In this document: positions 8,343 through 40,442 of the stretch, piece after piece
How positions within the stretch are numbered: position 1 is the stretch's first letter
How the letters are laid out: each line of letters starts with the position of its first letter
Origin: Gemmatimonadota bacterium
GTDB taxonomy: Bacteria > Gemmatimonadota > Gemmatimonadetes > Longimicrobiales > Gaopeijiaceae
DNA: 46,797 nucleotides
Assembly: GCA_009844885.1 (NCBI GenBank)
Contig: VYAQ01000184.1
Span: forward strand, 1 to 46,797
Direction: 5' to 3'
Notes under the pieces: generated by a model
Seen by the model: only the letters and a program-made list of their open reading frames with translations
Databases searched by the model: none
Told to the model about the DNA's origin: nothing
Position numbers and translations under genes: made by a program

Positions 8343-9701
8343 TCAGAGTTCGCCGAGGGTGTCGATGGGAAGCCGCCCCGTGCTGCCGCCGACCTTGTCC
8401 ATCGGCATGTCCATCTTGTCCATGAGCGTGGCCAGCAGGTTCGCGTGGGTCGGTCCGCCCTCGTACCTGATGTGCTGTCCGCCGTTAAGCTTGCCGTTGG
8501 CGCCGCCGAAGACGACCAGCGGGATGTTGTCGCCCGCGTGACGCTGGCTGTTGGAGATACCCGACCCGTACAGCCCGGTGATCGAGTCCAGCAGCGAACC
8601 GTCCCCGTCCGGGGTGCGGCTCAGCTTGGTCAGGTGACGCGTGAAGAGTTCGACGTGGTACCGGTTGATCTTCGCCACGTACTTCACCAGGTCGGGCCGG
8701 TTGCCGTGATGCGACAACGGATGCCATGCCTCCGGCACGCCGATCTGCGGATACGGCCGCGCGTTCACCTCGCGTCCGATCATCATCGTCGACACCCGCG
8801 TGATGTCGGCCTGGTAGGCCAGGATCTGCATGTCGAGCAGCAGCTCGAGGTGGTCCTCCAGCGTCTCCGGGATGCCCTGGGGCTGCTCCATGTTGGGGAG
8901 GTCCACGTCCAGCTGCTCCTCCGCGATCACGATCCGCCGCTCCACGTCCCGCACCGCTTCGGTATACTGCTCGACGCTGCGCTGGTCCTCGGGACCCAGC
9001 TCGCGCCTCAGCGCCCGCAACTTGTCGTTGACCGAGTCCAGCAGGCTCTTCTGCTGGTGCAGGCGCCGCTCCCGCGGCTCGCGGTCGGTCGTGCCGGTGT
9101 CGCCGAAGAGCCGTTCGAAGACCGTCCGCGGGTGGTTCTCCATCGGGAGCGGCTGGGTGGGTGTCCGCCAGGAGATGGTGTGTGTGTACGCGCAGTTCAG
9201 GATGGCGCAGGTGCCGGCGTTGGGCGGGCCGTCCAGGGACAGCTCCAGCGAGCCCAGCTGCGTCTCCCCGCCCCACTCGCGCGCCAGCATCTGGTCGATC
9301 GACTCCGCCGCGATGATGTCGGTGTTGTCGACCGCGTCGATATCGCCAAGCGACCTTCCCACCATGCCGGTCAGGAAGCTGGTGGGACCGCCGGCGTGGT
9401 TGAAGTTCCACGACGCATTGACGCCGGTCGGAATGATGATCCTGTTCCTGAACGGTTCCAGCGGACCCAGGATTTCGGAGAGCGCGAAGTCACGGCCCTC
9501 GCCAGTCGGGGTCCAGTAGGGCATGGACTGCCCGTTCGGCGTGTAGTAGGCGAGGAACCTGTGCGGAGACTTGCGCCTGGGACCGCCGACGGCGGTCAGA
9601 CGAGCCGGCGTCATCGCCTGCAGGAAAGGCAGCATCAGCGCCGCCCCGGCGCCGCGCAGGACGGTGCGCCGCGAGATGTGCCTACCGGTAATCAGGTCCA
9701 T
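8343..9701 (-). CDS. DUF1552 (HXXSHH) domain protein, copy 1
   Basis: Tat-like signal ISRRTVLRGAGAALMLPFLQAM; motif WHPLSHHGNRPD matches HXXSHH; C-terminal HANLLATLMDKMDM... Confidence 0.92.
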   Translation of the reverse strand: MDLITGRHISRRTVLRGAGAALMLPFLQAMTPARLTAVGGPRRKSPHRFLAYYTPNGQSMPYWTPTGEGRDFALSEILGPLEPFRNRIIIPTGVNASWNFNHAGGPTSFLTGMVGRSLGDIDAVDNTDIIAAESIDQMLAREWGGETQLGSLELSLDGPPNAGTCAILNCAYTHTISWRTPTQPLPMENHPRTVFERLFGDTGTTDREPRERRLHQQKSLLDSVNDKLRALRRELGPEDQRSVEQYTEAVRDVERRIVIAEEQLDVDLPNMEQPQGIPETLEDHLELLLDMQILAYQADITRVSTMMIGREVNARPYPQIGVPEAWHPLSHHGNRPDLVKYVAKINRYHVELFTRHLTKLSRTPDGDGSLLDSITGLYGSGISNSQRHAGDNIPLVVFGGANGKLNGGQHIRYEGGPTHANLLATLMDKMDMPMDKVGGSTGRLPIDTLGEL

Positions 9702-12303
9702 TTCCTTCCCCTCCGGATTCGCGGTTCGAGGGTTCCGGCAGCCCGGTCGTCGGGCTTGTGGGTGCGCTCATCCTCATCAGGAACTGCGGGCTTTCCACAA
9801 TCCCCTGGATGATGGACGACCAGGTGTAGTTTTCCGCCTCCGCGTCGCGCATGATCCTGCGGATCGTCGGCTGGTCATGGTACTCGATATCGCGCCCCAG
9901 CGCATACTGCATGAGCTTGGTCGTCGCGGTGCGGACGAACTGCTCCCTGTTCTCCAGCAGGAGACTTCGGAGACCCGACAGTCCCCGGATCTCCTGGTCG
10001 GTCTCCGGCCACAGACCGGTGTCGTCGACCGGATTGCCGAGTTCGTCAATGAGGCGGCGGCCACCCGCGGCGTCGTACGCCTCCAGCGCAAAGCCCAGCG
10101 GATCGATGGTTCGGTGACAGCTGGCGCAGGTGGGATCGGTGCGGTGGCTGGCGAGCCGTTCCCGGATCGTCGGCTGTCGCGCGTTGCCATCCTCCTCGGG
10201 TGGTTCCAGGCTCGTGTCCAGGCCGGGCGGGGGCGGGGGCACGTGACGGCCCAGGATGTTCTCCAGAATCCACTTGCCCCGAAGCACCGGCGTGGTCCGC
10301 TCGGGGTACGAAGTGACCGTGAGGATACTGGCGTGGCCCAGAAGGCCGCCCCGCTTCTCCAGGTCCGGAAGCTGAACCCGGCGGAAGTGACTCCCTGCGA
10401 CACGGGGAAGGTTGTAGTGGTCGGCCAGCCGCTCGTTCACGAACGTGTAGTCGGCGTTCAGGAGCTCCAGCACGCTTCTGTCTTCGCGGACGTTGTGGTC
10501 GAGGAAGAGCCTGGTTTCCTCTTCCATGGCCTCGCGAAGGTTGTGGCTGTATTCCAGGTAGATATCGTCCTGCAGGAGCCGGTCGTCCAGCTCGCGGAGC
10601 TTCAGCCACTGGCTGGCGAAGTCGTCCACGAGCGTCTCGCGAGCCCGGGAGTCGTTCAGCATGCGCCGCGTCTGTTCCCTCAGAACCGTGGGATCGGTGA
10701 GCCGGCCCGCCTCGGCGTCCCTGAGGAGCGCCTCGTCCGGAACGGTGCTCCACAGGAAGAAGGAGAGCCGGGACGCGATCTCCAGGTCGCTCAGCGGGTA
10801 GGGGCTGCCCCCCTCCGGCTCCCGGTAGACGCGCAGCAGAAAGTCCGGATCGACGAAGATGCGCTCCAGCCCCAGCTGGATTCCGTGGTCGAAGCTCCCG
10901 CCCTCGTCCCTGCCCATCCGGTAGAAGCGCAGGAGAACTCCCGCGTCCTCGCCGGTCACCGGGCGGCGGTAGGCGCGCCGCGCCATTGCCGTCAGGATCT
11001 CCGTGGCACAGGCCTCCTCGGTGGCGGTGGACGCGGGCTCGCAGGTGAAGATCGCCTCCCGGCTCCTGGTGCTGGCGGCCACCGCCGTCTCGCCAAAGGG
11101 GCCGTCGATTTCCACACCGAGCACGCCCGACAAGCCGAAGTGCTCGTTGTTGAAGTAATCGATCTGGCCGCGTGTCTGGACGGGGACCTGCGGGAGGAGG
11201 TACTCCTCACCGTAGCCCAGATCCCTGGCATACGAGAGGCCGACGATGCGGCTTCCCGCCTCGACGCGCACGGTGGCTGCGAGAGGCGCCTCGGCGCCGA
11301 ACTTGGCGTAGTCTTCCCACTCTGGAGACCCGGGCCAGCCGGGACCGCCACCCGCACCGGCATAGCTGTTGGCCACCGGCCGGTGCTGCAGCCCCTCCCC
11401 GCCGAACGCGAGCGTGGCCGCCCGGGCTCCGTCGATGCGGATTTCGAGTTCCTGCCGCCACGCCAGCCCCCGGGCGTAACCCGCGTAGTTCTTCTGCAGA
11501 CGGACGCGGATCCGGTACTCGCCGTCCACCGGGAACGTGTGGCGGATCGCCATGCCGCCACGGGACCCGAGCGGCAGATCGTCGCTCATTCTCACGTTCT
11601 GGCGCTTGGCGTCGTCAGCGGCATAGCGGGACGAGCCCGCTCCCGCGGGAGGCAGCCCGACCGCCAGCCGCGTGACCGTTCGGGCAACGGACAGGTACCG
11701 CTCCATGTGCAGCGGCGAGATGCTGAGCGCGTCGGCCACGTTGTCGAACCCGCCGCCCATGGTCTCGTCCCCGGGGAGGGCGTCGACGACATCGACGTCC
11801 AGTCCCAGCAGGTCGTTGATGGCATTGTTGTACTCGGTCCGGTTCAGGCGGTGCACCGCGTTGATACGACCCACGTTGGGACGCTCCGCCCAGGCAGCGT
11901 CCAATTCGGACTCGAGCCAGCCCGCCACTGCGTCGTAGGTCTGTCGGCCGGGCCGTCGCACACCGCCCGGCGGCATGGCGCCCGCACGCAGCTTGCCAAC
12001 CACCTTCTCCCAGATCTGCGGGTGGGCCGCCGGGTTTGCGGCATCGTACTGGTCCAGCTCCAGGGATGCCGTGCGACGGACATCGTTGTGGCAGCGCACA
12101 CAGTACTCATTGACCATGGCCTGGGCCTCGGCGCCCGTGGCCATGAGCAGCGGATGCGTCTCCTGGATCTGCACCACCCGAGGCGCCGCGTCAGTCACCG
12201 CCTCCAGTTCGCCGGTCGCGGAGGTGGAAGGGAGCGTCGAGCACGACAGAAGCACCAACCCGGCGACCAACGGGCCTTCGTTCCTCGGCATTTTCGGCGC
12301 CAT
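9682..12303 (-). CDS. DUF1592/DUF1588/DUF1585-type (Planctomycete cytochrome-C-like) protein, copy 1
   Basis: Start MAPKMPRNEGPLVAGLVLLSCS at 12303. Heme-binding-type CVRCH and CASCH motifs, RLNRTEYNNAINDLLG, AYRRPVTGED, HVPPPPPG, TCASCHRTIDPLGFALE. Stop overlaps start of DUF1552-1 by 20 bp. Confidence 0.92.
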   Translation of the reverse strand: MAPKMPRNEGPLVAGLVLLSCSTLPSTSATGELEAVTDAAPRVVQIQETHPLLMATGAEAQAMVNEYCVRCHNDVRRTASLELDQYDAANPAAHPQIWEKVVGKLRAGAMPPGGVRRPGRQTYDAVAGWLESELDAAWAERPNVGRINAVHRLNRTEYNNAINDLLGLDVDVVDALPGDETMGGGFDNVADALSISPLHMERYLSVARTVTRLAVGLPPAGAGSSRYAADDAKRQNVRMSDDLPLGSRGGMAIRHTFPVDGEYRIRVRLQKNYAGYARGLAWRQELEIRIDGARAATLAFGGEGLQHRPVANSYAGAGGGPGWPGSPEWEDYAKFGAEAPLAATVRVEAGSRIVGLSYARDLGYGEEYLLPQVPVQTRGQIDYFNNEHFGLSGVLGVEIDGPFGETAVAASTRSREAIFTCEPASTATEEACATEILTAMARRAYRRPVTGEDAGVLLRFYRMGRDEGGSFDHGIQLGLERIFVDPDFLLRVYREPEGGSPYPLSDLEIASRLSFFLWSTVPDEALLRDAEAGRLTDPTVLREQTRRMLNDSRARETLVDDFASQWLKLRELDDRLLQDDIYLEYSHNLREAMEEETRLFLDHNVREDRSVLELLNADYTFVNERLADHYNLPRVAGSHFRRVQLPDLEKRGGLLGHASILTVTSYPERTTPVLRGKWILENILGRHVPPPPPGLDTSLEPPEEDGNARQPTIRERLASHRTDPTCASCHRTIDPLGFALEAYDAAGGRRLIDELGNPVDDTGLWPETDQEIRGLSGLRSLLLENREQFVRTATTKLMQYALGRDIEYHDQPTIRRIMRDAEAENYTWSSIIQGIVESPQFLMRMSAPTSPTTGLPEPSNRESGGEGNGPDYR

Positions 12304-12325: not shown

Positions 12326-12343
12326 GTATCCGACGCTGGATAC
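12326..12343. promoter_or_regulatory. Candidate operator dyad A (GTATCCGACGCTGGATAC)
   Basis: Inverted repeat GTATCC-N6-GGATAC. A TAGAAT -10-like hexamer lies on the '-' strand at 12353-12348, which would place the TSS inside the dyad. Confidence 0.45.
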
Positions 12344-12425
12344 CAACATTCTAGCAGTCCGTGGATGAATCCGCACGAGCACCGAGACCGGTGAGGCGCC
12401 GCGCTGGCAAGGCGCGACGAGAGGG

Positions 12426-12442
12426 GAATAGCAGCGCTATTC
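12426..12442 (+). other. Perfect 7-bp hairpin in the leader of the methyltransferase gene
   Basis: GAATAGC-AGC-GCTATTC, followed by gaggaggga 10-20 nt before the ATG at 12460. Confidence 0.5.
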
Positions 12443-12459
12443 GCCCGAGGAGGGAGTCG

Positions 12460-13881
12460 ATGTCCAGTACACCATCGCGCGAGCGCGCAGGACACAGTTC
12501 GCGGACAGAGGTCGAGAGCCTTCTGCACGCCGTCCTCTGTCCCCGGTGTGCGGCTGCCCTCGACCTGGCCGCGCCGACGCTCCGATGCCGCAGGTGCGGA
12601 CAGGTCTACCCCCGGCTGGGGAGAATCCCCGTGCTCCTCTCCGAGCCACTCGCCTACCTCGCATCGTGCCGGCGGCAACTGGACCGGCTGGAGCGGCAGG
12701 TGGAGCGAACCGTCCAGGACATCCGGGAGCAGCTTCAGGCGACGGACCTGCTGCTGGCCACGCGGCGGCGCTGCGAGATCACGACCGAGGGAATCACCAC
12801 GCAACTCGCCGATGTCCGCGCCATCCTCGAACCCCTGCTTCCCGCTGCGATCCGCTCGGAGGGGCAGGCGTGGCCGGACCAGGCGCCCGCCACGCTGCAC
12901 CACCTGCCGTACCTCTACCGGGACTGGGGTTGGCCCTCGGAAGCAGACGGCGAAAACGAGGAGGCCCTGTCCATGGTGGAGGAGATGCTGGGGGACACCG
13001 GACCGGGGCGCACACTCGTCATGGGGGCCGGCGCGTGCCGGCTCGCCTACGACATCCATCACCGCCACCCGGATGCGGAGATCATGGTGATGGATCTGGA
13101 TCCGGTCCTCTTTGCGGCGGCCCACGCCGTGACCCACGGAGAGCCCCTGACCGTCCGCGAGGCCAATCTCGAGATGGGCGACATGAACCAGGCGGTGAAG
13201 GAGTGGTCGCTGGCCGCGCCGCAAGGCCCGGTTGACGATACCCGATTCCACTTCCTGATTGCGGATGCCGTCGACCCGCCGCTCGACCCCGGGGTCTTCG
13301 ACACGGTGCTGACGCCATGGTTCATCGATCAGGGACCCGAAGATGTCCGCGACCTGATCAGCACGCTTCATCGGATGCTGAAGCCGGGCGGGCGTTGGGT
13401 GAACCTGGGTCCCCTCCAGTACCACCTGGACGTGCCCGTCTCACGCCGCTTCGCCCGGGAGGAATTGTTCGACCTGGCCGAGCGGGCGGGGTTCCGCGTG
13501 GGGCCGTCGAAGAGCGCGACCGTGCCCTACCTGGTCTCCAGGCTGAACGGTCGAGGGAAGGTGGAGTGGGTGTTGGCGTTTTCGGCCATCCGGCTCGAAG
13601 CGCCGGAGACCGGCTCACGCCCGCACGTCGGTCCGCCGCCGTGGCTGGTCTTTCGACACTTGCCCATTCCGACGTTCGAGGGCCAGGCACTGTTCTGGTC
13701 CGAAGCCTCCATGATCCGTATGGTGGTCTCGTCCATCGACGGCCGCCGCACGCTGGACGACATCGCCCGCCGGGTGGCCGAGCGGGCGGACCAGCCGGAT
13801 ATCTCCATGAGCCAGGTCCGGACTGCGGTGCGGCAGTGTCTACAGGGTGTCCACCCCGCGTGTCGGGGTCGCCCCGCGTGA
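12460..13881 (+). CDS. N2227/carnosine N-methyltransferase-like SAM methyltransferase with N-terminal Trm112-like zinc ribbon and C-terminal helical extension
   Basis: MSSTPSRERAGHSS...; CPRCAAALDL...LRCRRCGQVYP (zinc ribbon); GAGACRLAYDIHH (SAM loop); FDTVLTPWFIDQGPEDVRDLISTLHRMLKPGGRWVNLGPLQYH resembles the N2227 block. Confidence 0.75.
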   Translation: MSSTPSRERAGHSSRTEVESLLHAVLCPRCAAALDLAAPTLRCRRCGQVYPRLGRIPVLLSEPLAYLASCRRQLDRLERQVERTVQDIREQLQATDLLLATRRRCEITTEGITTQLADVRAILEPLLPAAIRSEGQAWPDQAPATLHHLPYLYRDWGWPSEADGENEEALSMVEEMLGDTGPGRTLVMGAGACRLAYDIHHRHPDAEIMVMDLDPVLFAAAHAVTHGEPLTVREANLEMGDMNQAVKEWSLAAPQGPVDDTRFHFLIADAVDPPLDPGVFDTVLTPWFIDQGPEDVRDLISTLHRMLKPGGRWVNLGPLQYHLDVPVSRRFAREELFDLAERAGFRVGPSKSATVPYLVSRLNGRGKVEWVLAFSAIRLEAPETGSRPHVGPPPWLVFRHLPIPTFEGQALFWSEASMIRMVVSSIDGRRTLDDIARRVAERADQPDISMSQVRTAVRQCLQGVHPACRGRPA

Positions 13882-18834: not shown

Positions 18835-20778
18835 CTAGCAGCTCACGCAGCGATGGTTGTTCTTCGCGCCCAGGCGTTCCAGTAGCGCCACGGTCTCGAC
18901 GAACGGCTGGATCCGCTGCACCGGCCCGTTTGCCATATCGACCGTGGTCCGCCCGTTGCGCGCCACGGCGGTGACGTCTGCGCCGCGTTCCACGAGGTAC
19001 AGGATCATCTCGTTGTCCCCGCGGGCGGCTGCGTGGTGCACCGGGGTGTAGCCATTCAGGTCGCGGGCGTTGACGTCGGCGCCCAACTCCTCGACCAGAA
19101 ACCGCATGGTGGGCATCCAGCCGTCCGGGGCGTGGCGGTGGGAGTTGCCGGCGAAGCCCTGGCCGTAGCCGACTCCGGCGGCCGCGTGGATGGGTGGGAC
19201 CGCGGGGCCGCCGATGGGGACGGGGGGCAGCCCGGAGTGATCGGTGTCGTTCCGCGGCCCGAAGCTGCGCTGCGGCACCTTGATGGTGGGCAGATGGGGG
19301 TCCGCGCCGTACTCAAGGAGGAGCTTCATGGCGGGTACGTCGGTCGCGTGCGTGGCGCGCCAGAAGGGGGTCGCGCCGGTGCGGTCCACGCCGAGCAGAT
19401 CCCGGTTGTAGGTGGTGAACCAGAGGGTGCGCTCCAGGCGGGCGTTCACGTCCGCGCCGGCTTCCAGCAGGGCGCGCATCAGTTCCAGGTAGCCCGTCTG
19501 CTGTTGCTCGTGCTCCAGCGGCTGGGGGTGCCGGGCCTTGGGTGCCCAGTGCACGTTGAGCACGGCGTAGAGCGGCGTCGCGCCGGCGTCGCTGGCCCGA
19601 TTGGGGTCGGCACCCATGTCCAGGAGTTCGGCCACGAGATCGAAGTAGCCGTTGATCGCCGCCATGAGCATCGGCGTGGTGCCGTCGGCCGCGCTGGGAA
19701 GGTCGATGTCGACGCCCCCGTTCAGCAGCGCCATGACCGTCGCCGTTTGGCCCTCGCGTGCCGCGAGGTGGATCGCGGACAGGCCTCCGTGCTTGCCGAC
19801 CAGGTCGGCGTAGTTCAGCGGAATGGGCTCGCCGGTCTGACGGCGCGCTTCGAGCGCCTCCTGCGCGGCTTGCCTGGCCTGCTCCTCCCGCGAGGTGACC
19901 GGGGCGGCTGAAGACTGCAGCTGGCGGCCCGCGACACCCGATTCGACCGGGTAGCTCTGGGCGTCCGTGCCCCCGCGCATCGCGGCGACCTCCGTCCGCC
20001 GCCGCCGCTCCGAGGCGCGATCCATGATGTCGCGCTCGACGAGGTCCATCACGCGCGCGGTGATCGTCGCGTCGGCGCCGGCTTCGAGCAGTCTTGTCAC
20101 GGCCTTCGTGCGGCCCAGCGCCGCCGCGAACATGAGCGGAGTCTGCCCCCACTCGGGCTCCGTGGCGTCGCTGGCCGCGCCGTGGTCGAGCAGCGTCGTG
20201 ACGGCGCGCACATCCCCGGCGGCCGCGGCAAAGTGCAACGGCGTGGCCCCCGTTTCGGTCACCGCCGCAACGTCGGCGCCCGCCGCCGCCAGGACCGCGA
20301 CGATCTCGCCGTGGCCCTCCTTGCCGGCGACGTGCAGCGGCGTATGGGCACCCAGACGGGTAGCCGCGTCAAGATTGGCGCCGGCCCTGATGAGCAGCCG
20401 CGCGATCTCCGCATTCCCATTGAGCGCCGCCCAGTGGAGGCCGGCCATGCCATCCCCGTGCGTGACGTCGACGTCGGCACCGTCGGCAAGCAGGGCCCGC
20501 AGGGCCTCCACGTCGTTCCGCATGGCCGCGTCGGCCACGGGAGAGATGGGGGCGGTGCGCTGGGCGGATTCGGCGGGCATTTGCGCCGAAGCGGCGGCCG
20601 GGAGGACGCCGCCGGGCGAGGCAGGCAGCCATGCGATCAGGGCCCCCAGCAGCAGAGGCGCGAGTCTTCCCGCAGGCGCCGCCGGGACGCGCTGCCCGCA
20701 GGCACGGGCGGCGGTGCCCACCGCACACGAGACGCCGGGCCTTCTCCAACCGCAGAACCCCGCCATGGCGATCCTCAT
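18835..20778 (-). CDS. Exported ankyrin repeat protein (Ank-2), C-terminal NNHRCVSC
   Basis: Ankyrin repeats after a hydrophobic N-terminus; SPVADAAMRNDVEALRALLADGADVD..., ends LGAKNNHRCVSC*. Confidence 0.9.
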   Translation of the reverse strand: MRIAMAGFCGWRRPGVSCAVGTAARACGQRVPAAPAGRLAPLLLGALIAWLPASPGGVLPAAASAQMPAESAQRTAPISPVADAAMRNDVEALRALLADGADVDVTHGDGMAGLHWAALNGNAEIARLLIRAGANLDAATRLGAHTPLHVAGKEGHGEIVAVLAAAGADVAAVTETGATPLHFAAAAGDVRAVTTLLDHGAASDATEPEWGQTPLMFAAALGRTKAVTRLLEAGADATITARVMDLVERDIMDRASERRRRTEVAAMRGGTDAQSYPVESGVAGRQLQSSAAPVTSREEQARQAAQEALEARRQTGEPIPLNYADLVGKHGGLSAIHLAAREGQTATVMALLNGGVDIDLPSAADGTTPMLMAAINGYFDLVAELLDMGADPNRASDAGATPLYAVLNVHWAPKARHPQPLEHEQQQTGYLELMRALLEAGADVNARLERTLWFTTYNRDLLGVDRTGATPFWRATHATDVPAMKLLLEYGADPHLPTIKVPQRSFGPRNDTDHSGLPPVPIGGPAVPPIHAAAGVGYGQGFAGNSHRHAPDGWMPTMRFLVEELGADVNARDLNGYTPVHHAAARGDNEMILYLVERGADVTAVARNGRTTVDMANGPVQRIQPFVETVALLERLGAKNNHRCVSC

Positions 20779-20788
20779 GCCGTCCTCC

Positions 20789-22198
20789 TCACACCGCCAG
20801 CGGGAACGCGCCCGTGCTGTTGCCGAAGCTCTGCACGTCGTCCAAACCCAGCTTGTGCATGAGGCTGAGCATGACGTTGGCCATCGGCGTTCCGGGGGCC
20901 GCGCGCAAGTGGAGGTCCCCGTCCATGCGGCCGTTGGCCCCGCCGACCACGAACAGCGGGCATCGCTTGTGATTGTGCACGTTGGAGTCGCCCATCGGGG
21001 AGCCGTAGAGCACCATCGTCTTGTCCAGCAGGCTGGCGTCCCCCTCCTGGATGCCCGCGAGCCGGTCCAGGAAGTACGGGACCAGTCCCACGTGATACCG
21101 GTTGATCTCGGCGAACTCGAGCACGTTGTCGGGGCGTCCGCCGTGATGCGACGACGGATGGAAGCCCTTCTCCACGCCGCTCTCGGGATAGACCCGGCTG
21201 GAGGCGTCGCGGCCCATCTTGAACGAAAAGATGCCCGTCACGTCCGCCTGGAAGGCGAGCGCCTGCAGATCGAACATCAGCTTGACGTGCTCGTCGAAGG
21301 AGTCGGGCACTCCCGCGGGCGCGCCCGGCAGCTCGCGCTGTTCGCCGCTCTCGTTGCGGGCCACCACGCGGGCGATCCGGCGTTCGAGTTCACGGATGTC
21401 GTTCAGATAGCGGTCCACCCGGCGTCCGTCGACCGGATCCAGCTCCCGCTTCAGCGCGTTCACTTCGCCGACGATGAAGTCGAGGATGCTGGCGCTGGCC
21501 CTGCGCCGGGCTGCCCGGGCTTCGGGGCTGCCGCCGGCGCCGAAGAGCTGGTCGAAGGCGACCCGTGGATCGCGGACCATGGGAAGCGGCTGATCGGGCG
21601 CGGCCCAGGAGATGGTGTCGGTGTAGACGCAGGCGTACCCATACGCACAGCCCCCCGCCTGGTCCACGTTCTCGATGCAGAGTTGCATGGACGGGATGGG
21701 GGTGTCCTGCCCGAACCGCTGGGCATACAGCTGATCCACAGAGGTGCCGACCCAGACGTCCGAACTCTCGGTCTGCTTGGGGTGGGACTGCGTGAGGAAG
21801 GTCGCGCTGGAGCGGAAGTGGTCGCCGCCGATCTCCTTGGGTTTCCTTGCCTCCGCACCCTCGACATCGGTGTCGCTGACGATCGTGAGGTAGTCACGGT
21901 AGGGTTCCAGCGAACTCAGCACGCTGGGCCCGAAGTCGAAGCCGCGGCCCGTCTCCGGGGGAGACCAGAGGTGCTGCGTCGCGCCCCACGCATTGCTGCC
22001 CGCCGAGCCGTGCACCATCTCGATCGCGACAAGTCGAGTGCGGTCGAGCGCGGTGCGGGCCCGAGTGACCGCCCACCGCTCCCGGGCCGGAGCCATCGCG
22101 TCCAGGAACGGGAGCGCGACGCTTGCGCCGAGGCCGCGCAGGAAGGTCCGGCGTGGCAGGTGCCGCCCGGTGATCAGATGCGGGGGGATTCTGTCCAC
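20789..22198 (-). CDS. DUF1552 (HXXSHH) domain protein, copy 2
   Basis: Tat-like signal LPRRTFLRGLGASVALPFLDAM; FHPSSHHGGRPD; TPMANVMLSLMHKLGLDD. Confidence 0.93.
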   Translation of the reverse strand: MDRIPPHLITGRHLPRRTFLRGLGASVALPFLDAMAPARERWAVTRARTALDRTRLVAIEMVHGSAGSNAWGATQHLWSPPETGRGFDFGPSVLSSLEPYRDYLTIVSDTDVEGAEARKPKEIGGDHFRSSATFLTQSHPKQTESSDVWVGTSVDQLYAQRFGQDTPIPSMQLCIENVDQAGGCAYGYACVYTDTISWAAPDQPLPMVRDPRVAFDQLFGAGGSPEARAARRRASASILDFIVGEVNALKRELDPVDGRRVDRYLNDIRELERRIARVVARNESGEQRELPGAPAGVPDSFDEHVKLMFDLQALAFQADVTGIFSFKMGRDASSRVYPESGVEKGFHPSSHHGGRPDNVLEFAEINRYHVGLVPYFLDRLAGIQEGDASLLDKTMVLYGSPMGDSNVHNHKRCPLFVVGGANGRMDGDLHLRAAPGTPMANVMLSLMHKLGLDDVQSFGNSTGAFPLAV

Positions 22199-22203
22199 GG
22201 GCT

Positions 22204-24744
22204 CTAGCCTCCGTTTCCGCTCGGCGCTTCTTCGTCGACCACCACGGGCGCGGCCTTCAGCAGGAACGCGTCGCTGGTCGCCACCCCGACGATGAACGCG
22301 GATACCCGGTAGTCTTCCTCGGCCGCGGCCCGGGTGATCCGGCGCACGGCCGGCATGTCATAATACTCCAGACGGCGCCCGAGCGCATATGCCATGAGGT
22401 TTTCGGTGAAGGTGCGCACCAGCGGTTCGGGCCGCTTCAGCAGCGCCGCGCGCAACTCCGAGGGCGTCGAAATGGGGGTGCCGTCGTAGAAGTCGCTGGC
22501 CGCGTCGATCGGAACGCCCTGGTCCCGGATCCGCCAGGCGCCGGTCACGTCGAAGTTCTCGAGCGCCAGACCGATGGGGTCGATCATGCGGTGGCAGGAG
22601 TTGCACGTCGGGTTGGCGGCGTGCATCTCGAGCCGCTCGCGCACCGTGAGGAAGCGGCCGTCGCCCACCGCCTCCTCCTCCAGCTCGGGCACGTCGGGCG
22701 GAGGTGGCGGCGGCGGCGTCCCCAGGAGCACTTCCATCACCCACTTGCCCCTCAGCACCGGCGACGTGCGGCCGGCGTGCGAGGTGAGCGTGAGGATGCT
22801 GCCGTGACCCAGCAGGCCTCGCCGCTCGTCGTGCAGGTAGCGGACGCGCCGGAAACGGTCGCCTGCGATGTCGGGGATGCCGTAGTGCCGCGCCAGCCGT
22901 TCGTTCACGAAGGTGTACTCGGCGTCGTAAAGGTCCATGACCGACGCGTCTTCGCGGACCAGGTTGTCAAAGAAGGTCTCGGTCTCCTCCAGCATCGCGC
23001 GCTTGAGCGGTTCGTCGAAGTCGGGATTGACGCGCGGGTCCGGCTGGATCCTTTCCAGGTCCTGGAGGCGGAGCCACTGTCCAGCGAAGCGCGTCGAGAG
23101 CGCCGCGGAACGGGGGTCGCGCAGCATCCGGTGCACCTGGCTCTCCAGCACGGCCGGGGCCGACAGCCGACCCTCGCGCGCCACCGCCATCAGCTCGTCG
23201 TCGGGACCCGATCCCCACAGGAAGAAGGAGAGCCGTGCGGCCAGATCGTGGTCGCCGACGCGGTAGGCCGCTGACTCCTCGCCCGTCTGGCCAGCCAGCC
23301 CCGCTGTGGCGGTCGGCTCCTCGATGCGGAAGATGAAGTGCGGGCTGGCGAGGATCCCCTCCAGCGCCATGCGCACCCCGCCCTCGAAGCCCTCGATCTC
23401 CGCGCCGGCGTCGTAGAGCCCCATCAGTGCGGCCATGTTCGCCTCGGTCAACGGACGCCGGTACGCGCGGGTGCCCAGGCGGGCGACGATCTCGCGCGCA
23501 CAGCCTCGCGCCGCCACCGCGGTCGCTTCCGGGTCGGCCCCGGTCCCGGGCCGGCAGGAGAACACCGCCCGGCGGCTGGGCGTGTCCGATACGCCCTGTG
23601 GATCGTACGGCCCGCCGATCGCCAGGTCCCGCAGGTGCGGGAGCACGGTGAAGCCGTAGCTGCCGGCGATACTGGTGCTGGCCAGCGACCAGTCGTGCGG
23701 CGAGATCAGATCCTGAAGCGGCCCTTCGGAGCGCCGTATGAACGCCGCCGCCACCTGGCGCGGTCCGGCGCGCACGAACACGCGTTCGGAGCGGATGTTC
23801 ACGCCGTCCGGATCGGAGGTGTGCATCCAGCGGTTGACCTCCAGCACCGCCACCGGTTCACCGTCGACGGAGATCTCCAGCAGCTCCGGCTCACCGTCCC
23901 CGGTGTGGAGAGCGTTGCGGCCGTTGCCGACGAGGGCCCCCGTGGTCTCGTGGTGGAAGGACACGCGGAAGCCGTAGTAGCCGTCGGCGGGGAAGTTGTG
24001 CAGCACCGACACGCCGCCCCGCGTGCCGTACGGCGCGCCGTCCACCCGCTCGCTCTGGGAGTCCCAGCGAGAAACCCGGTAGGTCGATTCGCTCGGCGTG
24101 ATGTGGGGGTCGCCGATCGCCAGCCGGCTGATCTCCGCGGCGGCACGCAGGTAGCCGTCGGTCAGCGTCGCCGACAGAAGCTGGGCGTCGGCGATGTTGT
24201 CGAAGTTCGCGCTCTTGGTATCGAGGGGCAGGTAGGCGCCCGCGTCGATCTCCAGGTCGAGAAGGTCGTGGACCGAGGCCCGGTACTCGGCGCGGTTGAG
24301 GCGCTGGAAGGTGCGGCGGCCGGGATTCGGGTTCTCGGACGCGGCGATGTCCATCTGGGATTCCAGCGATTCGATCAGGCCCGTCAGGACGGGTTCGTCC
24401 GGGCGCCGATTCCCGGGTGGGGGCATCAATCCCGCCCGTAGCTTGCGGATCATCTTCTCGGCGAGTTCGCCGTCGGCTGGCGCGTCGGTAGCGTCGAAGG
24501 CTTCCAGCGACATGTTCCCGAGCAGCCGCCGCTCGTTGTGACAGCGAACGCAGTATTGCCGGATGACCTCGTTGTCGCTGAGGGCTCCGCCGCCGGCCGG
24601 TCCGCCGATCCCGGAGGCCGTCTGGGCCGCGCCCCACCCAACCGCTGAGGCCGCCACCCGGTCGTCGGGCGTGGACGCAAACGAGACCCCGAGGCCGACG
24701 AGAACAACGCCGGCCGCCGCTACCGGGGCCGCGTGCTTCAGCAT
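22204..24744 (-). CDS. DUF1592/DUF1588/DUF1585-type cytochrome-C-like protein, copy 2
   Basis: Signal MLKHAAPVAAAGVVLVGLGVSFAS; YCVRCHNERRLLGNMSLEAFD; GTPPPPPPPDVPE; NPTCNSCHRMIDPIGLALENFD. Confidence 0.93.
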   Translation of the reverse strand: MLKHAAPVAAAGVVLVGLGVSFASTPDDRVAASAVGWGAAQTASGIGGPAGGGALSDNEVIRQYCVRCHNERRLLGNMSLEAFDATDAPADGELAEKMIRKLRAGLMPPPGNRRPDEPVLTGLIESLESQMDIAASENPNPGRRTFQRLNRAEYRASVHDLLDLEIDAGAYLPLDTKSANFDNIADAQLLSATLTDGYLRAAAEISRLAIGDPHITPSESTYRVSRWDSQSERVDGAPYGTRGGVSVLHNFPADGYYGFRVSFHHETTGALVGNGRNALHTGDGEPELLEISVDGEPVAVLEVNRWMHTSDPDGVNIRSERVFVRAGPRQVAAAFIRRSEGPLQDLISPHDWSLASTSIAGSYGFTVLPHLRDLAIGGPYDPQGVSDTPSRRAVFSCRPGTGADPEATAVAARGCAREIVARLGTRAYRRPLTEANMAALMGLYDAGAEIEGFEGGVRMALEGILASPHFIFRIEEPTATAGLAGQTGEESAAYRVGDHDLAARLSFFLWGSGPDDELMAVAREGRLSAPAVLESQVHRMLRDPRSAALSTRFAGQWLRLQDLERIQPDPRVNPDFDEPLKRAMLEETETFFDNLVREDASVMDLYDAEYTFVNERLARHYGIPDIAGDRFRRVRYLHDERRGLLGHGSILTLTSHAGRTSPVLRGKWVMEVLLGTPPPPPPPDVPELEEEAVGDGRFLTVRERLEMHAANPTCNSCHRMIDPIGLALENFDVTGAWRIRDQGVPIDAASDFYDGTPISTPSELRAALLKRPEPLVRTFTENLMAYALGRRLEYYDMPAVRRITRAAAEEDYRVSAFIVGVATSDAFLLKAAPVVVDEEAPSGNGG

Positions 24745-24751
24745 GGACGCC

Positions 24752-26560
24752 TCAACAGGAAACGCAGTTGTGGTTGTTCACCGCACCGAGACCTTCCAGA
24801 AGAGCGATGGTCTCCGGGAATGGCTGGATCCGCTGCACCGGGCCGTTGGCCATATCCACCGTCGTCTGCCCGCGCCTGCTGACGAGGGTGACATCGGCGC
24901 CCTGTTCCACCAGGTACAGGATCAGTTCGTTGTCGCCGCGGGCAGCAGCGTGGTGGAGGGGGCTGAATCCCTCGAGATCACGGGCGTTCACATCGGCACC
25001 GAGCTCCTCGACCAGGTAGCGGACCGCCGGTACCCAGCCATCGGGCACGTGGCGGTGCGCGTTCGCCGCGAATCCCTGTCCGTAGCCGACTCCGGAGGCC
25101 GCATGGATCGGGTAGACCGCCGGGCCGCCTACCGGTACGGGCGGCAGGCCCGAGTGGTCGACCTCTTCGCCGCCGCCCCGGCCGTACCGCCGCGAAGGGA
25201 CCCTCTCGGTCGCCATGGAAGGGTCGGCTCCGCCAGCGACAAGCAGCTGCATCGCCTCCACGTCGAGCGCGTAGGCGGCCCGCCAGAACGGCGTGGCTCC
25301 CTTCGCGTCGATCTGGAGCAGGTCGAAGTTGTAGGACATGAACCAGAGGTGCCTGGTGAGCCGGGCGTTCGGGTCGGCACCGGCTGCCAGCAGCTTCTCC
25401 ATGACCTCGAGGTAGGTGTGGTCCTGCTGCATGTAGATGTGCTGCTGCGGGTAGCGCGACTTGGGTGCCCAGTGGGTGTTGATCGCGGCAAAGAGCGGGG
25501 TCGCGCCCGCATGGCTGGCCATCGTGGGGTCGGCACCGAGCTCCAGGGAACGCATGGCCAGGTCGTAGTGCCCGTTGATGGTGGCCATCAGGATCGGGCT
25601 GGTTCCGTCGCCGGCGCTCACCTGGTTGATGTCCGCGCCGCCGTCGATCAGCGCCAGCGCCGTCTCGGCGTGCCCCTCGCGGACCGCGTGCAGCAACGCG
25701 GTGAGACCGCCGTGGCCGCCCACGAGTTCGCCGTAGGACAACGGCTCGGGTTCCTCGATCATGCGCGTCTCGGCTTCCGCCGCCGATGCGGCTTCGGCCA
25801 ATTCGCGCCGGCGGCTCTCCTCCTCGTGCTGACGGCGCACCTCGGCTGCCACCTCGGGCCCCCAGGGCTGCCCCTCCCGGATTCGCCTGTTGCGCTCGGA
25901 ACGCTCGATCCGGTCGTAAACGGCACGCGACGTGACGTCCATCACCCGGGAGTGGATCGCGGGATCGGCGCCGGCAGCCAGCAACGCGGCGACGACCTCG
26001 GTCCTTCCCTTCGACGCCGCGAAGATCAGCGGAGTCTGCGCCCACGATTCCTCGGCCGCGTTCACGTCGGCCCCGGCCGCCGCCAGGGCCCTGACGCCCC
26101 GCTCGCTCCCGGCCGCCGCCGCGAGGTGCAGGGGACGCGCAGCGCCTCCCACCGTGATCGGCGCGTCGGGATCGGCTCCGGCACCCAGGAGGAGCTCGAC
26201 GACCTCCCCCGCCCCGGCCTGCGCCGCCACGTGAAGCGGCGTGTAGCGCCCGATGCGGGTCCCGGCACCGATGTCCGCGCCGGCCTCCAGGAGCATGTGG
26301 GCAAGCCCGGGGTCCCGGTTGCTCGCTGCCCAGTGCAGGGCCGTCATGCCGTCGCCCTGGGCCGCGTTGACATCCGCTCCGTCGGCGATGAGGTCACGGA
26401 CCGCGGCTGCGTCGCCACGCATGGCCGCGTCGGCCACGGGGCTGTCGTGACCGACCGCGGCGGGGAGCAGCAGGGCCAGCAACAACGCCGAGACCCAGCC
26501 GCTCGCACGCAGGGCGCCGGTACTCGTTGCCGGTGGCCGGGGGTGACGCGTCGCTCCCAT
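24752..26560 (-). CDS. Exported ankyrin repeat protein (Ank-3), C-terminal NNHNCVSC
   Basis: MGATRHPRPPATSTGALRASGWVSALLLALLLPAAVGHDSPVADAAMRGDAAAVRDLIADGADVN..., ends LGAVNNHNCVSC*. Confidence 0.9.
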   Translation of the reverse strand: MGATRHPRPPATSTGALRASGWVSALLLALLLPAAVGHDSPVADAAMRGDAAAVRDLIADGADVNAAQGDGMTALHWAASNRDPGLAHMLLEAGADIGAGTRIGRYTPLHVAAQAGAGEVVELLLGAGADPDAPITVGGAARPLHLAAAAGSERGVRALAAAGADVNAAEESWAQTPLIFAASKGRTEVVAALLAAGADPAIHSRVMDVTSRAVYDRIERSERNRRIREGQPWGPEVAAEVRRQHEEESRRRELAEAASAAEAETRMIEEPEPLSYGELVGGHGGLTALLHAVREGHAETALALIDGGADINQVSAGDGTSPILMATINGHYDLAMRSLELGADPTMASHAGATPLFAAINTHWAPKSRYPQQHIYMQQDHTYLEVMEKLLAAGADPNARLTRHLWFMSYNFDLLQIDAKGATPFWRAAYALDVEAMQLLVAGGADPSMATERVPSRRYGRGGGEEVDHSGLPPVPVGGPAVYPIHAASGVGYGQGFAANAHRHVPDGWVPAVRYLVEELGADVNARDLEGFSPLHHAAARGDNELILYLVEQGADVTLVSRRGQTTVDMANGPVQRIQPFPETIALLEGLGAVNNHNCVSC

Positions 26561-26573
26561 CGAGCCTCCTCGC

Positions 26574-27956
26574 CTACACCGTCAGCGAAAAGTCGGACGT
26601 ACTGTTGCCGAACTTCTTCATATCGTCCATGCCGAGCTTGTGAGCCAGGCTCAGCATGACGTTCGCCATGGGCGTACCCGGCGCGGCGCGCAGATGGAGG
26701 TTGCCGTCCAGCCCGCCGTTCGCGCCACCGACCACGAACAGCGGACAGCGCTTGTGGTTGTGGATGTTCGGATCCCCCATGGGCGACCCGTAGACGATCA
26801 TCGTCCGGTCGAGCAGATGCGTGTCTCCATCCATCGTGCTCCCGAGCTTCTCCAGGAAGTAGGGGAGCATCCCGACGTGATATCGGTTGATCTGGGCGAA
26901 GTCAGTGATGTTGCCCTCGTTGCCGCCGTGGTGCGAAGCGGGGTGGAAGGGTTTCTCGACGCCGCTCTCGGGGAAGATCCGGGCCGACGAGTCACGTCCC
27001 ATCTTGAAGGAGAACACCCGGGTCACGTCGGATGCGAAGGCCAGCGCCTGCAGGTCGAACATGAGTTCCACATGCTCCCGGAACGAGTCGGGCACGCCGG
27101 CCGGCGCCTCGGGCAGTTCGCGCGCCTCGCCGCTGGCGTTCTGCACCTCCACGCGTTCGATCCTCCGTTCGAGTTCGCGCACATGCTCGAGGTATCGGTC
27201 GAGGCGGACCATATCGGCCGGCCCCAACTGGCGCTTCAGCTGCGAAACCCTGCCCGTGATGAAGTCCAGGATGCTCCTGTTCACTCGTCGGCGCGCCGCC
27301 CGCTGCTCGGGACTGCCCCCGGCCCCGAAGAGCTGATCAAAGGCCACGCGCGGATCCCGCACCATCGGCAGCGGGTCGGTCGGCGACGCCCAGCTGATCG
27401 TGTCGGTGTAGACGCAGGCGTAGCCGTACGCGCAACCGCCGGATTGGTCCACATTCTCGATACAGAGCTGCATCGACGGAATCGGCGTGTCCTGACCGAA
27501 TCGCTTCGCAAACATCTGGTCGATCGACTCCCCGACGAAAATGTCGGACCCCTCGGTCTGCCGGGGGTGCGACTGGGTCAGGAAAGTCGCGCTGGAGCGG
27601 AAGTGGTCGCCGCCGATCTCCTTCGGCTTCTTGGCCTCGGCAGGCTCGATGTCCGTATCACTGATGATCGTCAGGTAGTTACGGAACGGCTCGAGCGGGC
27701 TGAGCGCACTCGGGCTCAGGTCGAAGTCGCGTCCGGTCTGCGAGGGCGACCAGTAGTTCTGGCTCCGGCCCCACGCGTTGCTGCCCGCGGCGCCGTGCAC
27801 CATCTCGATCGCTACGAGCCGCGTCGGGCCCTCGGCCGCCGTGCTCCAGCCCCGGCCGGCCGGGACCATCGCGTCGAGGAAGGGCAGAGAAACCGAAGCG
27901 CCAACCCCCTTGAGAAATGTCCTGCGGGGGATCGCCGTGCCTGTGATGTATTGCAT
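26574..27956 (-). CDS. DUF1552 (HXXSHH) domain protein, copy 3
   Basis: Tat-like signal IPRRTFLKGVGASVSLPFLDAM; FHPASHHGGNEG; close paralog of copy 2. Confidence 0.93.
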   Translation of the reverse strand: MQYITGTAIPRRTFLKGVGASVSLPFLDAMVPAGRGWSTAAEGPTRLVAIEMVHGAAGSNAWGRSQNYWSPSQTGRDFDLSPSALSPLEPFRNYLTIISDTDIEPAEAKKPKEIGGDHFRSSATFLTQSHPRQTEGSDIFVGESIDQMFAKRFGQDTPIPSMQLCIENVDQSGGCAYGYACVYTDTISWASPTDPLPMVRDPRVAFDQLFGAGGSPEQRAARRRVNRSILDFITGRVSQLKRQLGPADMVRLDRYLEHVRELERRIERVEVQNASGEARELPEAPAGVPDSFREHVELMFDLQALAFASDVTRVFSFKMGRDSSARIFPESGVEKPFHPASHHGGNEGNITDFAQINRYHVGMLPYFLEKLGSTMDGDTHLLDRTMIVYGSPMGDPNIHNHKRCPLFVVGGANGGLDGNLHLRAAPGTPMANVMLSLAHKLGMDDMKKFGNSTSDFSLTV

Positions 27957-27987: not shown

Positions 27988-30333
27988 TCAGTCGTGCGTC
28001 CCGTGACCCGCCGGCTCCTCCACCAGAATATCCGGCCTCGACATGCGGAAGGGGTCGCTCAGCACCACCTCCTTCACGAACGCCGAAAGCCGGTAGTCGT
28101 CTTCACCCACGGCCCTCGCCACCTGGCGCACCGCGGGCATGTCGTAGTACTCGATCCTCCGCCCGAGAGCGTAGGCCATGAGGTTCTCGGTGAACGTCCG
28201 CACCAGCGACTCGGGACGCCTCAGCAGCGCCGAGCGCAGGTCCGCGGGTCCGTGCAGCGGGGTGCCGTCGTAAAGCTCGCCCAGCGTCTCGACCGGCGTA
28301 CCGGTGTCGCGGATGCGCCAGGTCCCGGTTACGTCGAAGTTCTCGAGCGCGATCCCGATCGGGTCAATGAACCGGTGGCAGGAATTGCAGGTCGGATTGG
28401 CCGCATGCTGCTCGAGACGCTCGCGCACCGTGAGGAAGCGGCCGTCACTGGCCTCGGCGGTCGCGTCGAGTTCCGGGACGTCGGGCGGAGGCGGGGGCGG
28501 AGGCGTGCCCAGCAACACTTCCATCACCCACTTCCCCCGCAGCACGGGTGAGGTGCGATTGGCGTGGGAAGTCAGGGTGAGGATACTGCCGTGGCCCAGA
28601 ATGCCGCGCCTGGCGTCATCCGTGTACTGCACCGGACGGAAGTGCTCGCCGGCAACCCCGGGAATACCGTAGTGCCTGGCCAGCCTCTCGTTCATGTACG
28701 AGTGATCCGCGGTCAGGAAGTCCTGCAGCGTGCCTCCCTCGCGGACCAGGGCGTTGAAGAAGGTCACGGTCTCGCGGCGCATGTCGCGCTTGAGCTGGTC
28801 GTAGAAGTCCGGATAGCGCAGTGCGTCGGGGTGGACCTTGTCGAGGTCCTGGAGCCGCAGCCACTGCGCCGCGAAACGCGTGCCCAGCGCTTCGGCACGG
28901 GGGTCGGCCAGCATGCGCTCCACTTCGGCCGCAAGCGCGTCGGGATCGGACAGCCGCCCCTCCGTTGCCGCATCGACGAGTGCCGCGTCGGGAAGATGTC
29001 CCCACAGGAAGAACGACAGTCGCGATGCCAGCGCGATATCGCTGATGGGGCGCATTCCGCCCGGGGCCTCGGCGTCCGGAGAAGGCTCTTCAAAACGGAA
29101 GACGAAGTCGGGGCTGGCGAGGATTCCCTGGAGCGCGGTCCTTACTCCGATGTCGAAACCGCCCTCGGCCGCGCCCTCCTCGAACAGGCCCATGAGCCCA
29201 TCGACCTCGGCGTCGTGGACGGGACGGCGGAAGGCGCGTGTCCCCAGTTCACCGATGATCCGGCGCGCGCAATCCGGCTCGTCGGCAGCGCTGGCCGGAC
29301 GGCAGGTCATCACCCTCTCCCACGCGGGCGTACGCGTCACGCCGGTGATGTTGTACGGCCCGCCGATCGTGAGATCCCGCAGGTGCGGCACACCCGTGAT
29401 CCCGTACGAGTACCCGATCTTCTTGTCGGCAAGCGACCACTCGTGCGGCGAGGTCAGGTCCTCGACCGGCCCCTCGGTCACCTTGATGAAGGCGGCAGAA
29501 ACGCGGTGTGGGCCCGCCGTCACCCGGATCGGATCGGTCACGACCTCGACCCCGCCCGGATCCTGGCGGTGCATCCACCGGTCCAGGGGGATGAGCGCCA
29601 CGCGGACCCCGTCGATCGACACCTCGACCTCTTCGTCGAACGGCGCAGTCTGGCCGAAGAAGTTGCCGGTCGACTCGTGCTGAAAGGCGAGCCGAAAGAA
29701 GTACTCGCCATCGGCAACGAAGTTGTGAACGACGGAGATCCCGCCGCGGGTCCCGTACGGCGTGCCGGGCACGTGTTCGCGCTGCTCGGCGTACCGCGAA
29801 ACCTCGTACGTGGCCTCGGCGGGGGTCGCGTTGGCGTCGCCCAGGGCCAGCCGGCTCACCTCGCTCGCGGCCGTCAGGTACGACTCGAGCAGGGTGGCCG
29901 ACAGATTCTGCACGTCGGCGATGTTGTCGAACCCGGCGCTGACGGTCTCGTTCGGAAGGTAGGCCGACGCATCGATCCCGATTCCGAGCAGGTCGTGGAT
30001 CGCCGCCGCGTACTCCGCCCGGTTGAGGCGCTGGAAGGTCCGGTTGCCAGGGTTCGGATTGCGCTCGGCAGCGGCGTCGAGCTCTTCCTCGAGACCGGTG
30101 ACGAAGGCCGTGATCTCCTCTTCTGGCGGGCGGCGGACCCCGGGCGGCGGCATCATGCCGGCCCGCAGCTTGCGGATCATCTTCTCAGCGAGCGGCGCAT
30201 CGGCAACCGGGTTCGCCGAGTCGAAGTCCTCGAGCGACATGTTGCCGAGCAGTCGCCGTTCGTTGTGGCAGCGAACGCAGTACTGCTGCACGATGTCCGA
30301 GGCTGGGACGGCGGGAGCGGCGGAGGCAGGCAA
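27988..30333 (-). CDS. DUF1592/DUF1588/DUF1585-type cytochrome-C-like protein, copy 3 (true N-terminus probably upstream of the called TTG)
   Basis: QYCVRCHNERRLLGNMSLEDFD; GTPPPPPPPDVPE; NPTCNSCHRFIDPIGIALENFD. In-frame codons upstream of 30333 encode PVPVLVLAVVLGLSLPSG. Confidence 0.88.
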   Translation of the reverse strand: MPASAAPAVPASDIVQQYCVRCHNERRLLGNMSLEDFDSANPVADAPLAEKMIRKLRAGMMPPPGVRRPPEEEITAFVTGLEEELDAAAERNPNPGNRTFQRLNRAEYAAAIHDLLGIGIDASAYLPNETVSAGFDNIADVQNLSATLLESYLTAASEVSRLALGDANATPAEATYEVSRYAEQREHVPGTPYGTRGGISVVHNFVADGEYFFRLAFQHESTGNFFGQTAPFDEEVEVSIDGVRVALIPLDRWMHRQDPGGVEVVTDPIRVTAGPHRVSAAFIKVTEGPVEDLTSPHEWSLADKKIGYSYGITGVPHLRDLTIGGPYNITGVTRTPAWERVMTCRPASAADEPDCARRIIGELGTRAFRRPVHDAEVDGLMGLFEEGAAEGGFDIGVRTALQGILASPDFVFRFEEPSPDAEAPGGMRPISDIALASRLSFFLWGHLPDAALVDAATEGRLSDPDALAAEVERMLADPRAEALGTRFAAQWLRLQDLDKVHPDALRYPDFYDQLKRDMRRETVTFFNALVREGGTLQDFLTADHSYMNERLARHYGIPGVAGEHFRPVQYTDDARRGILGHGSILTLTSHANRTSPVLRGKWVMEVLLGTPPPPPPPDVPELDATAEASDGRFLTVRERLEQHAANPTCNSCHRFIDPIGIALENFDVTGTWRIRDTGTPVETLGELYDGTPLHGPADLRSALLRRPESLVRTFTENLMAYALGRRIEYYDMPAVRQVARAVGEDDYRLSAFVKEVVLSDPFRMSRPDILVEEPAGHGTHD

Positions 30334-30477
30334 TACGGCGGCCTGCCCCGGCCGGAACGACTCCGACGCATGCCGCGCAGAATCGGTCCCTGAGGGGAGG
30401 CTAAGTCCCAGTACGACCGCCAGTACCAGGACAGGGACGGGTCTCGTCGGACCGGTGAGAACAACCTCCTGGTCGCA

Positions 30478-30495
30478 GTATCTGTATCTGGATAC
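30478..30495. promoter_or_regulatory. Candidate operator dyad B (GTATCTGTATCTGGATAC)
   Basis: Inverted repeat CAGTATC-N8-GATACTG (30476-30497). 14 of 18 positions match dyad A. '-' strand TTGCGG-N17-CAGTAT promoter-like elements overlap it. Confidence 0.45.
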
Positions 30496-30614
30496 TGCCG
30501 CACGGGGGCCGGTTCCGCAAGGTCACCGGCGGCAACGTCGTACGGGGTCTGGCGCCGGGGTCGTCGGAGACAGGTTCGCCGTTCGAATGCCGGGCGATTC
30601 TGTCCGCGGGCTGC

Positions 30615-38716: not shown

Positions 38717-38757
38717 GGGAACGCCCCGCCAGCCACTCGGGCCGGCGGGGCGTTCCC
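38717..38757 (-). terminator. Long GC hairpin downstream of tonB-2
   Basis: GGGAACGCCCCGCCAGCC...GCCGGCGGGGCGTTCCC. The single imperfection is a G.U wobble on the '-' transcript. Only weakly T-rich tail (CCCTTGTTG). Confidence 0.65.
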
Positions 38758-38779
38758 GCGTGCAGGGCGACCGAGCGCG

Positions 38780-39460
38780 CTAGTTGGTTCTGAAGGTAAT
38801 CGGAAGCGATATCCAGACGGCAACCGCCTTGTCCCGGTTGAGCGCCGGCGTGAACCGGAAGACGGGTGCCACGCGCAGCGCGGCGTCGTCGAGCGCCTTG
38901 TGCCCGGAGGTCACCTCCACCACCTGGTTCCGTACCACACCGTTTTCGTCGATGAAAAACGCCACCTGGACGGTGCCGCCGATCCCGGCGTCGCGCAGCA
39001 GCGGCGGATATTCGCGTTCCAGCGCGCGCATCACTTCGGCGGCGTTCGTGTAGGCGGGCTTGACCGTATGGGGGACGAACACCGGCGCCGCGGAGACGTC
39101 CAGCTCCACCTCACCGGGCGGCTCGGGCAGGTCATCGACGGAGAGGGACGTGAAGGTGGTCGGGTCTATGGTGATGTCGGTCTCGATGTCCGTGGGGGCG
39201 ATCACCGGGATCGCGGGTCTGGCGATGGCCTCGGGCGCAGGGGGCAGCACAACGTCCGGCGGCAGGTTGATCACCTCGGGCGGTTCGCCGTTCAGGCTCA
39301 GGTCCGGCGGCTCCGCGAATTCCAGATAGGCAAAGAACCCGAAGTGAACCATGGTGGCACCGATCATCGAGCTCCAGAACCAGGACGAGAACGAATTCTT
39401 GAAGCGGCCGTTCGCACTCTCGGTCCGGATCGGCTCCTGTCGGGTGATTGGCTCGTTCAT
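38780..39460 (-). CDS. tonB: TonB family energy transducer (copy 2)
   Basis: N-terminal TM after KNSFSSWFW; C-terminal EVMRALEREYPPLLRDAGIGGTVQVAFFIDENGVVRNQVVEVTSGHKALDDAALRVAPVFRFTPALNRDKAVAVWISLPITF. Confidence 0.93.
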   Translation of the reverse strand: MNEPITRQEPIRTESANGRFKNSFSSWFWSSMIGATMVHFGFFAYLEFAEPPDLSLNGEPPEVINLPPDVVLPPAPEAIARPAIPVIAPTDIETDITIDPTTFTSLSVDDLPEPPGEVELDVSAAPVFVPHTVKPAYTNAAEVMRALEREYPPLLRDAGIGGTVQVAFFIDENGVVRNQVVEVTSGHKALDDAALRVAPVFRFTPALNRDKAVAVWISLPITFRTN

Positions 39461-39596
39461 CGTCTTTCGCTCCCTGTGCGGCAGTTGTCGACACCTTGGT
39501 AGTGCTACCGCTCCCGGGAGGGAAACGTTCCGTCGAGCCGGGTCGCCAACGCGCCGGTGGGGCGGGCGGCGGACTCACCCGGGACGCTCGGCGGAC

Positions 39597-40307: not shown

Positions 40308-40380
40308 TCTCGTCCCGTTTCCAAGGTGTGTCGCGGGGGCGCCCGCGCCGGAGCCCGGCCGGCGCGGGAGTCCACGACAA

Positions 40381-40420
40381 GGGAACGCCCCGCCGGCCGC
40401 TCGGCCGGCGGGGCGTTCCC
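40381..40420 (-). terminator. Perfect 18-bp-stem GC hairpin downstream of tonB-1
   Basis: GGGAACGCCCCGCCGGCC-GCTC-GGCCGGCGGGGCGTTCCC; near-identical to the 38717-38757 hairpin. Confidence 0.7.
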
Positions 40421-40442
40421 GCTTCGCGGTCAGCCGTTGGCG

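Follow-up and report, generated by a model that had tools for sequence, protein, structure and literature searches.

Operator-like palindromes at the predicted starts of two DUF1592-led operons, and a promoter remodelled by a MITE-like repeat, in a small clade of Gemmatimonadota

The operators of repressors, for example those of the TetR or Xre type, can overlap the -10/+1 regions of sigma-70 promoters. The ends of insertion sequences or MITEs can create promoters. To our knowledge the DUF1592 and DUF1552 proteins have no known function, and either name is rarely mentioned in the literature searched. Among described operators, that of HipB at hipBA of E. coli has the consensus TATCC-N8-GGATA (PMC3376134). 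The locus considered here has two palindromes that compare well with TetR- and Xre-type operators in general, in that each is 18-24 bp long and lies across a predicted transcription start upstream of an operon. They differ from such operators in being present in one small clade only, and their role as operators is our interpretation.

Our tentative reading, to which we give a probability of roughly 0.43, is that both palindromes are operator-like, sit where transcription of the two DUF1592-led operons starts, and most likely serve repression by one dimeric helix-turn-helix protein. The reading starts from the sequences, placement and species distribution of the palindromes, together with the remodelling of one of the two promoters by a repeat.

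The window takes up the entire contig G000:C18, 46,797 nucleotides long, in the 4.9-Mb draft assembly of the source genome G000. It holds two minus-strand operons, each headed by a DUF1592 gene (DUF1592-1 and DUF1592-3). The best database relatives of the DUF1592-3 protein are in Gemmatimonadota and Longimicrobiales metagenome genomes, most of which are probably sponge-associated, judging from isolate names. The features that matter for the argument are these:

8343..9701, minus strand: DUF1552 (HXXSHH) gene downstream of DUF1592-1, assigned with Pfam.
9682..12303, minus strand: DUF1592-1 gene, which heads its operon, with Pfam domains PSD3/PSD5/PSD4/PSCyt3/PSD2.
12326..12343, minus strand: site A, the dyad GTATCC-AGCGTC-GGATAC (6-bp arms), at about +1 to +18 if the start is placed from the -10 box.
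12348..12356, minus strand: predicted extended -10 of DUF1592-1, TGC-TAGAAT, from comparison with relatives and with other copies of the repeat.
12351..12452, no strand assigned: partial, truncated copy of a MITE-like interspersed repeat, which replaces the promoter of relatives.
12460..13881, plus strand: divergent methyltransferase gene (CARME/Methyltransf_25 matches), with a predicted ATG start after GAGGGAG.
18835..27956, minus strand: remainder of the DUF1592-3 operon, namely DUF1552, ankyrin protein, DUF1592-2, DUF1552 and ankyrin protein.
27988..30456 (start approximate), minus strand: DUF1592-3 gene, from Pfam and orthologue alignment.
30475..30498, minus strand: site B in full, a 24-bp perfect palindrome GCAGTATC-CAGATACA-GATACTGC, with its core at 30478-30495.
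30492..30520, minus strand: predicted DUF1592-3 promoter, conserved in orthologues, with -35 TTGCGG (30520-30515), N17 and -10 CAGTAT (30497-30492).

Away from the two operons, at 38740-41084, there are two adjacent diverged direct repeats (300 nt, 76% identical, 1663 apart). They are probably duplicated genes. The plus-strand ORFs scanned around them have no Pfam match.

An earlier note on this DNA described a dyad GTATC-N8-GATAC shared by the two operons. The dyad is indeed present at 12326-12343 (site A) and 30478-30495 (site B), just upstream of a DUF1592-led operon in each case, and the two 18-mers agree at 14 of 18 positions. The note also placed a minus-strand TAGAAT beside site A, which was found at 12348-12353, and put site A about 23 nt from the DUF1592-1 ATG, which holds for the ATG at 12303. 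It was likewise right that the internal DUF1592-2 gene has no intergenic space (22204-24744 begins 7 nt past the preceding gene). What it missed is that site B extends to GCAGTATC-N8-GATACTGC, which gives arms of 8 bp.

Site B is best considered together with its promoter. A promoter of the form TTGCrr-N17-CArTAT(CC) can be read by eye in 13 of the 19 aligned DUF1592-3 orthologues, and site B reaches into the predicted -10 box with its left arm. The box ends with the dyad's left half, which many orthologues have without the right half. Four of the 19 (G000, G004, G017 and G001) retain the whole dyad. The 15 others lack the right half, although many of them resemble the left half in their -10 region. 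Across the order, the full palindrome is found in 4 of 154 genomes, at the DUF1592-3 promoter only, and is absent from the other 150. IleRS identity makes the four carriers a nearest group, at 92-95% against at most 85% for the rest. The arms are invariant in all four and the spacer varies (CAGATACA, CAAATACA or CAGATATA). The spacer changes abolish an extra internal GATAC, and the outer pair remains.

The palindrome at B is no proof by itself, since about 1% of shuffled upstream regions attain 8-bp arms. A comparison of G001 with G000 is more useful. Counted by eye, there is 1 difference over the block of about 50 bp that runs from the -35 through the palindrome, and there are about 8 differences in the 56 bases after it; the sequence upstream of it is unalignable. 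On this comparison the upkeep of B in G001, despite fully diverged upstream sequence, is a better argument than the palindrome itself.

The start of the DUF1592-3 gene is unusual in its own right. At 30453-30465 the ATG of relatives is replaced by CTG (G001, G004) or CCG (G000, G017), and G000 has no ATG, GTG or TTG where relatives have the ATG. The genomes that lack this ATG are the same four that hold palindrome B, and the signal-peptide reading frame is retained. The protein (27988-30333 coding) compares at 87% with those of G002, G014 and G016 (90% from residue 51) and at 84% with those of G004 and G017. In this it is unlike its promoter, which matches G004 and G017, the nearest relatives. 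The mismatch between protein and promoter affinities suggests a recombination within the gene.

Site A has a different history. Only 3 of 9 DUF1592-1 orthologues (G000, G004 and G017) have the perfect dyad. It is broken in G001 and five other relatives, all of which are without the repeat at this promoter (e.g. GTATGC...GGATTC); G001 has GTATACAATTTCGGATTT at this position. The dyad differs from the relatives by two substitutions near the new start, and these are either gains here or losses elsewhere. The DUF1592-1 promoter of G002, G006, G010, G014 and G016 reads TTGTGA-N17-TACAAT, followed by sequence like GTTGGTATGCAGTCTCGGATTC. The repeat has removed the TTGTGA box in G000, G004 and G017, and it sits between site A and the divergent methyltransferase gene, which the earlier note suggested site A could also affect.

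Full copies of this repeat are about 170 bp long (some are 245 bp), with inverted ends CAGTCCGTGGA...TCCACGGGCTG that often adjoin CTAG. It is MITE-like in that it is short, multicopy and has terminal inverted repeats. Matches number 22-53 or more in each of G000, G004, G017 and G021, 17 in G001 and 9 in G016. G021 has tandem copies at about 171-175 bp. The edge next to site A is matched by a sharp boundary at the same point in other copies. The end of the repeat would give the TGC and the TAG of the extended -10 TGC-TAGAAT, and the older flank would give its AAT. Site A starts a few bases after this box. A strict-consensus promoter scan called neither the promoter at A nor that at B, and a terminator scan found nothing at either site.

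If both sites are operators, a putative dimeric helix-turn-helix repressor would recognise the GTATC(C) half-sites. At B it would lie over the -10 box and the start site, so that binding of RNA polymerase would be blocked. At A it would lie at about +1 to +18, just past the extended -10, and block initiation or escape. We infer repression over activation here, and one protein for both sites. There is an evolutionary scenario that goes with this, though we consider it unlikely. The repeat would have swapped a -35-dependent DUF1592-1 promoter for an extended -10 in the ancestor of G000, G004 and G017. The adjoining sequence would then have become a palindrome that matches the DUF1592-3 operator, and both operons would have come under one repressor. 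That would be a recent rewiring driven by a mobile element.

Coincidence comes close behind a shared operator in likelihood. The -10 box (CAGTAT-CC) would then simply account for the left half of B, A would be similar by chance in a few close genomes, and the pair would have been noticed through whole-genome pattern scanning. Two findings fit coincidence: DUF1592-3 orthologues without the right half conserve the -10 element CArTATCC, and shuffled 120-nt upstream regions often contain perfect 6-bp arms. G004 and G017 add little independent support for A because they are about 91-92% identical at DUF1592-1. The genome counts, obtained by pattern searches, fit as well. Sites A and B are the sole two exact matches in 4,895,221 bases, with none elsewhere in the genome, against about 1.1 expected from base composition (68% GC, 4.9 Mb). 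One-mismatch matches number 42 against about 42 expected on the same basis. Since these counts are near the base-composition expectation they are not significant alone, and the signal is the shared placement at two DUF1592-led operons. Within the window there are 2 dyads against 0.04 expected from dinucleotide shuffles.

What argues against coincidence is that such sharing is rare for a given pair. Shuffled pairs of upstream regions shared a dyad this rare in 0 of 20,000 cases, and any dyad with arms of at least 5 bp in 0 of 20,000 (60 nt) to 5 of 20,000 (100 nt). Among 5,359 real pairs of dissimilar DUF1592 upstream regions the score was reached only by A with B and by A with the G017 form of B. 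The full B palindrome is also kept in G001 while its flanks and spacer change. These significance figures are overstated, because the motif was chosen after being seen. An event of about 1 in 10,000 is within reach when each window holds about 15 transcription units and many windows are read. Both sites co-occur only in G000, G004 and G017, the source species and its two nearest relatives, so the arrangement is a shared switch of recent origin or else a coincidence.

The earlier note went further and proposed a common regulator for both operons, with a motif that should be associated with DUF1592 genes across the genome and conserved at their orthologues. Part of this stands. The dyad is shared beyond simple chance for the pair, both positions are suited to blocking initiation, and the arrangement recurs in G004 and G017. 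The wider part does not. One-mismatch sites are at chance genome-wide, which gives no wider regulon. Upstream of the other DUF1592 genes in the genus, 79 regions in all, there are 3 sites with 2 mismatches (2.3 expected) and none with 0 or 1. Conservation at orthologues, at the counts given above for A and B, is confined to the nearest relatives. The offset from the -10 box also differs, as B covers the box and A follows it. Taken together, the chance counts, the absence of enrichment, the few orthologues and the differing offsets leave a common regulator possible only as a recent, clade-limited arrangement, and a general DUF1592 regulon outside this clade is not supported. Seven near-matches in the genome were inspected, and most are in coding sequence, one of them in what we read as an rpsA-like gene. 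Another immediately precedes the start of a predicted secreted repeat protein, and a third is between divergent genes; all are within chance numbers. No transcription-factor family or cognate regulator was found among the window proteins scanned with Pfam.

Other patterns were tried and rejected. The other paralogues carry about as many GTA-N10/12-TAC dyads as base composition predicts, which speaks against a general family of them in all DUF1592 promoters. The TGTA-N10-TACA dyad of the paralogue on contig C175 is upstream of the likely promoter, and its spacing differs. A general housekeeping promoter TTGC-N19-CAGTATCC was dropped: it had 9 matches in 23 genomes, and these operons account for 6.

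Orthologues of DUF1592-2 are worth a separate remark. The one in G007 (C175, 15974-16004; L102) is preceded by a promoter of its own, which carries the TTGC-N19-CAGTATCC signature of the DUF1592-3 promoters and is followed by GTGTACA, as is the case at the DUF1592-3 of G007. The one in G021 (L096) appears to have its own promoter too, and its upstream region contains the perfect 7-bp dyad GATGTAA-N8-TTACATC.

It is improbable that two different regulators each have their own operator, one at A and one at B, or that B alone is functional. Of the two, site B is by far the stronger, with 8-bp arms in four genomes against 6-bp arms in three close genomes at site A; the bases beyond the shared 5-bp arms differ, and so does the -10 offset. 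Against this, the arms and the N8 spacing are identical at the two sites. Least probable is that the dyads act as RNA, as 5' stem-loops that alter message stability or translation: site A would give a 6-bp stem at the 5' end (leader -12.2 kcal/mol) and site B as RNA an 8-bp stem (z -3.9), but the z-score at A is only -1.45 and relatives fold differently, the transcript from the predicted B start folds to only -1.7 kcal/mol, the B hairpin is disfavoured since its left arm is the -10 box and hence absent from a transcript started at the predicted site, and Rfam has no match in the window.

If the shared operator is real, it would offer a way to learn under what conditions these operons are switched on, and would point to a regulator and perhaps to an inducer. 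The case of a mobile repeat caught rebuilding a promoter is informative whether or not the palindromes share a regulator. The interest, modest overall, is chiefly in the promoter that the repeat has remodelled and in how well the palindrome at B has been kept.

How do these sites compare with named systems? HipB is a dimeric Xre-type repressor at a promoter, like the protein proposed here for A and B, and the half-site TATCC/GGATA is common to its operator and site A. The spacing differs, as the HipB half-sites are N8 apart and those of site A are N6 apart (TATCC-N6-GGATA). On one side of site B, GGATA is replaced by AGATA. There are four operator sites at hipBA against one site here, and the hipBA operon stands against operons of DUF1592, DUF1552 and ankyrin genes. 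Since spacing and operon content do not fit, we reject A and B as HipB operators; HipB is the nearest named operator by half-site, and a lead only. A further comparison is with promoters made by insertion sequences or MITEs. The repeat copy at DUF1592-1 differs in being truncated, and the promoter here is predicted from sequence. Just as in those promoters, it is the end of a small repeat that supplies the TGC-TAG of the predicted extended -10 at DUF1592-1.
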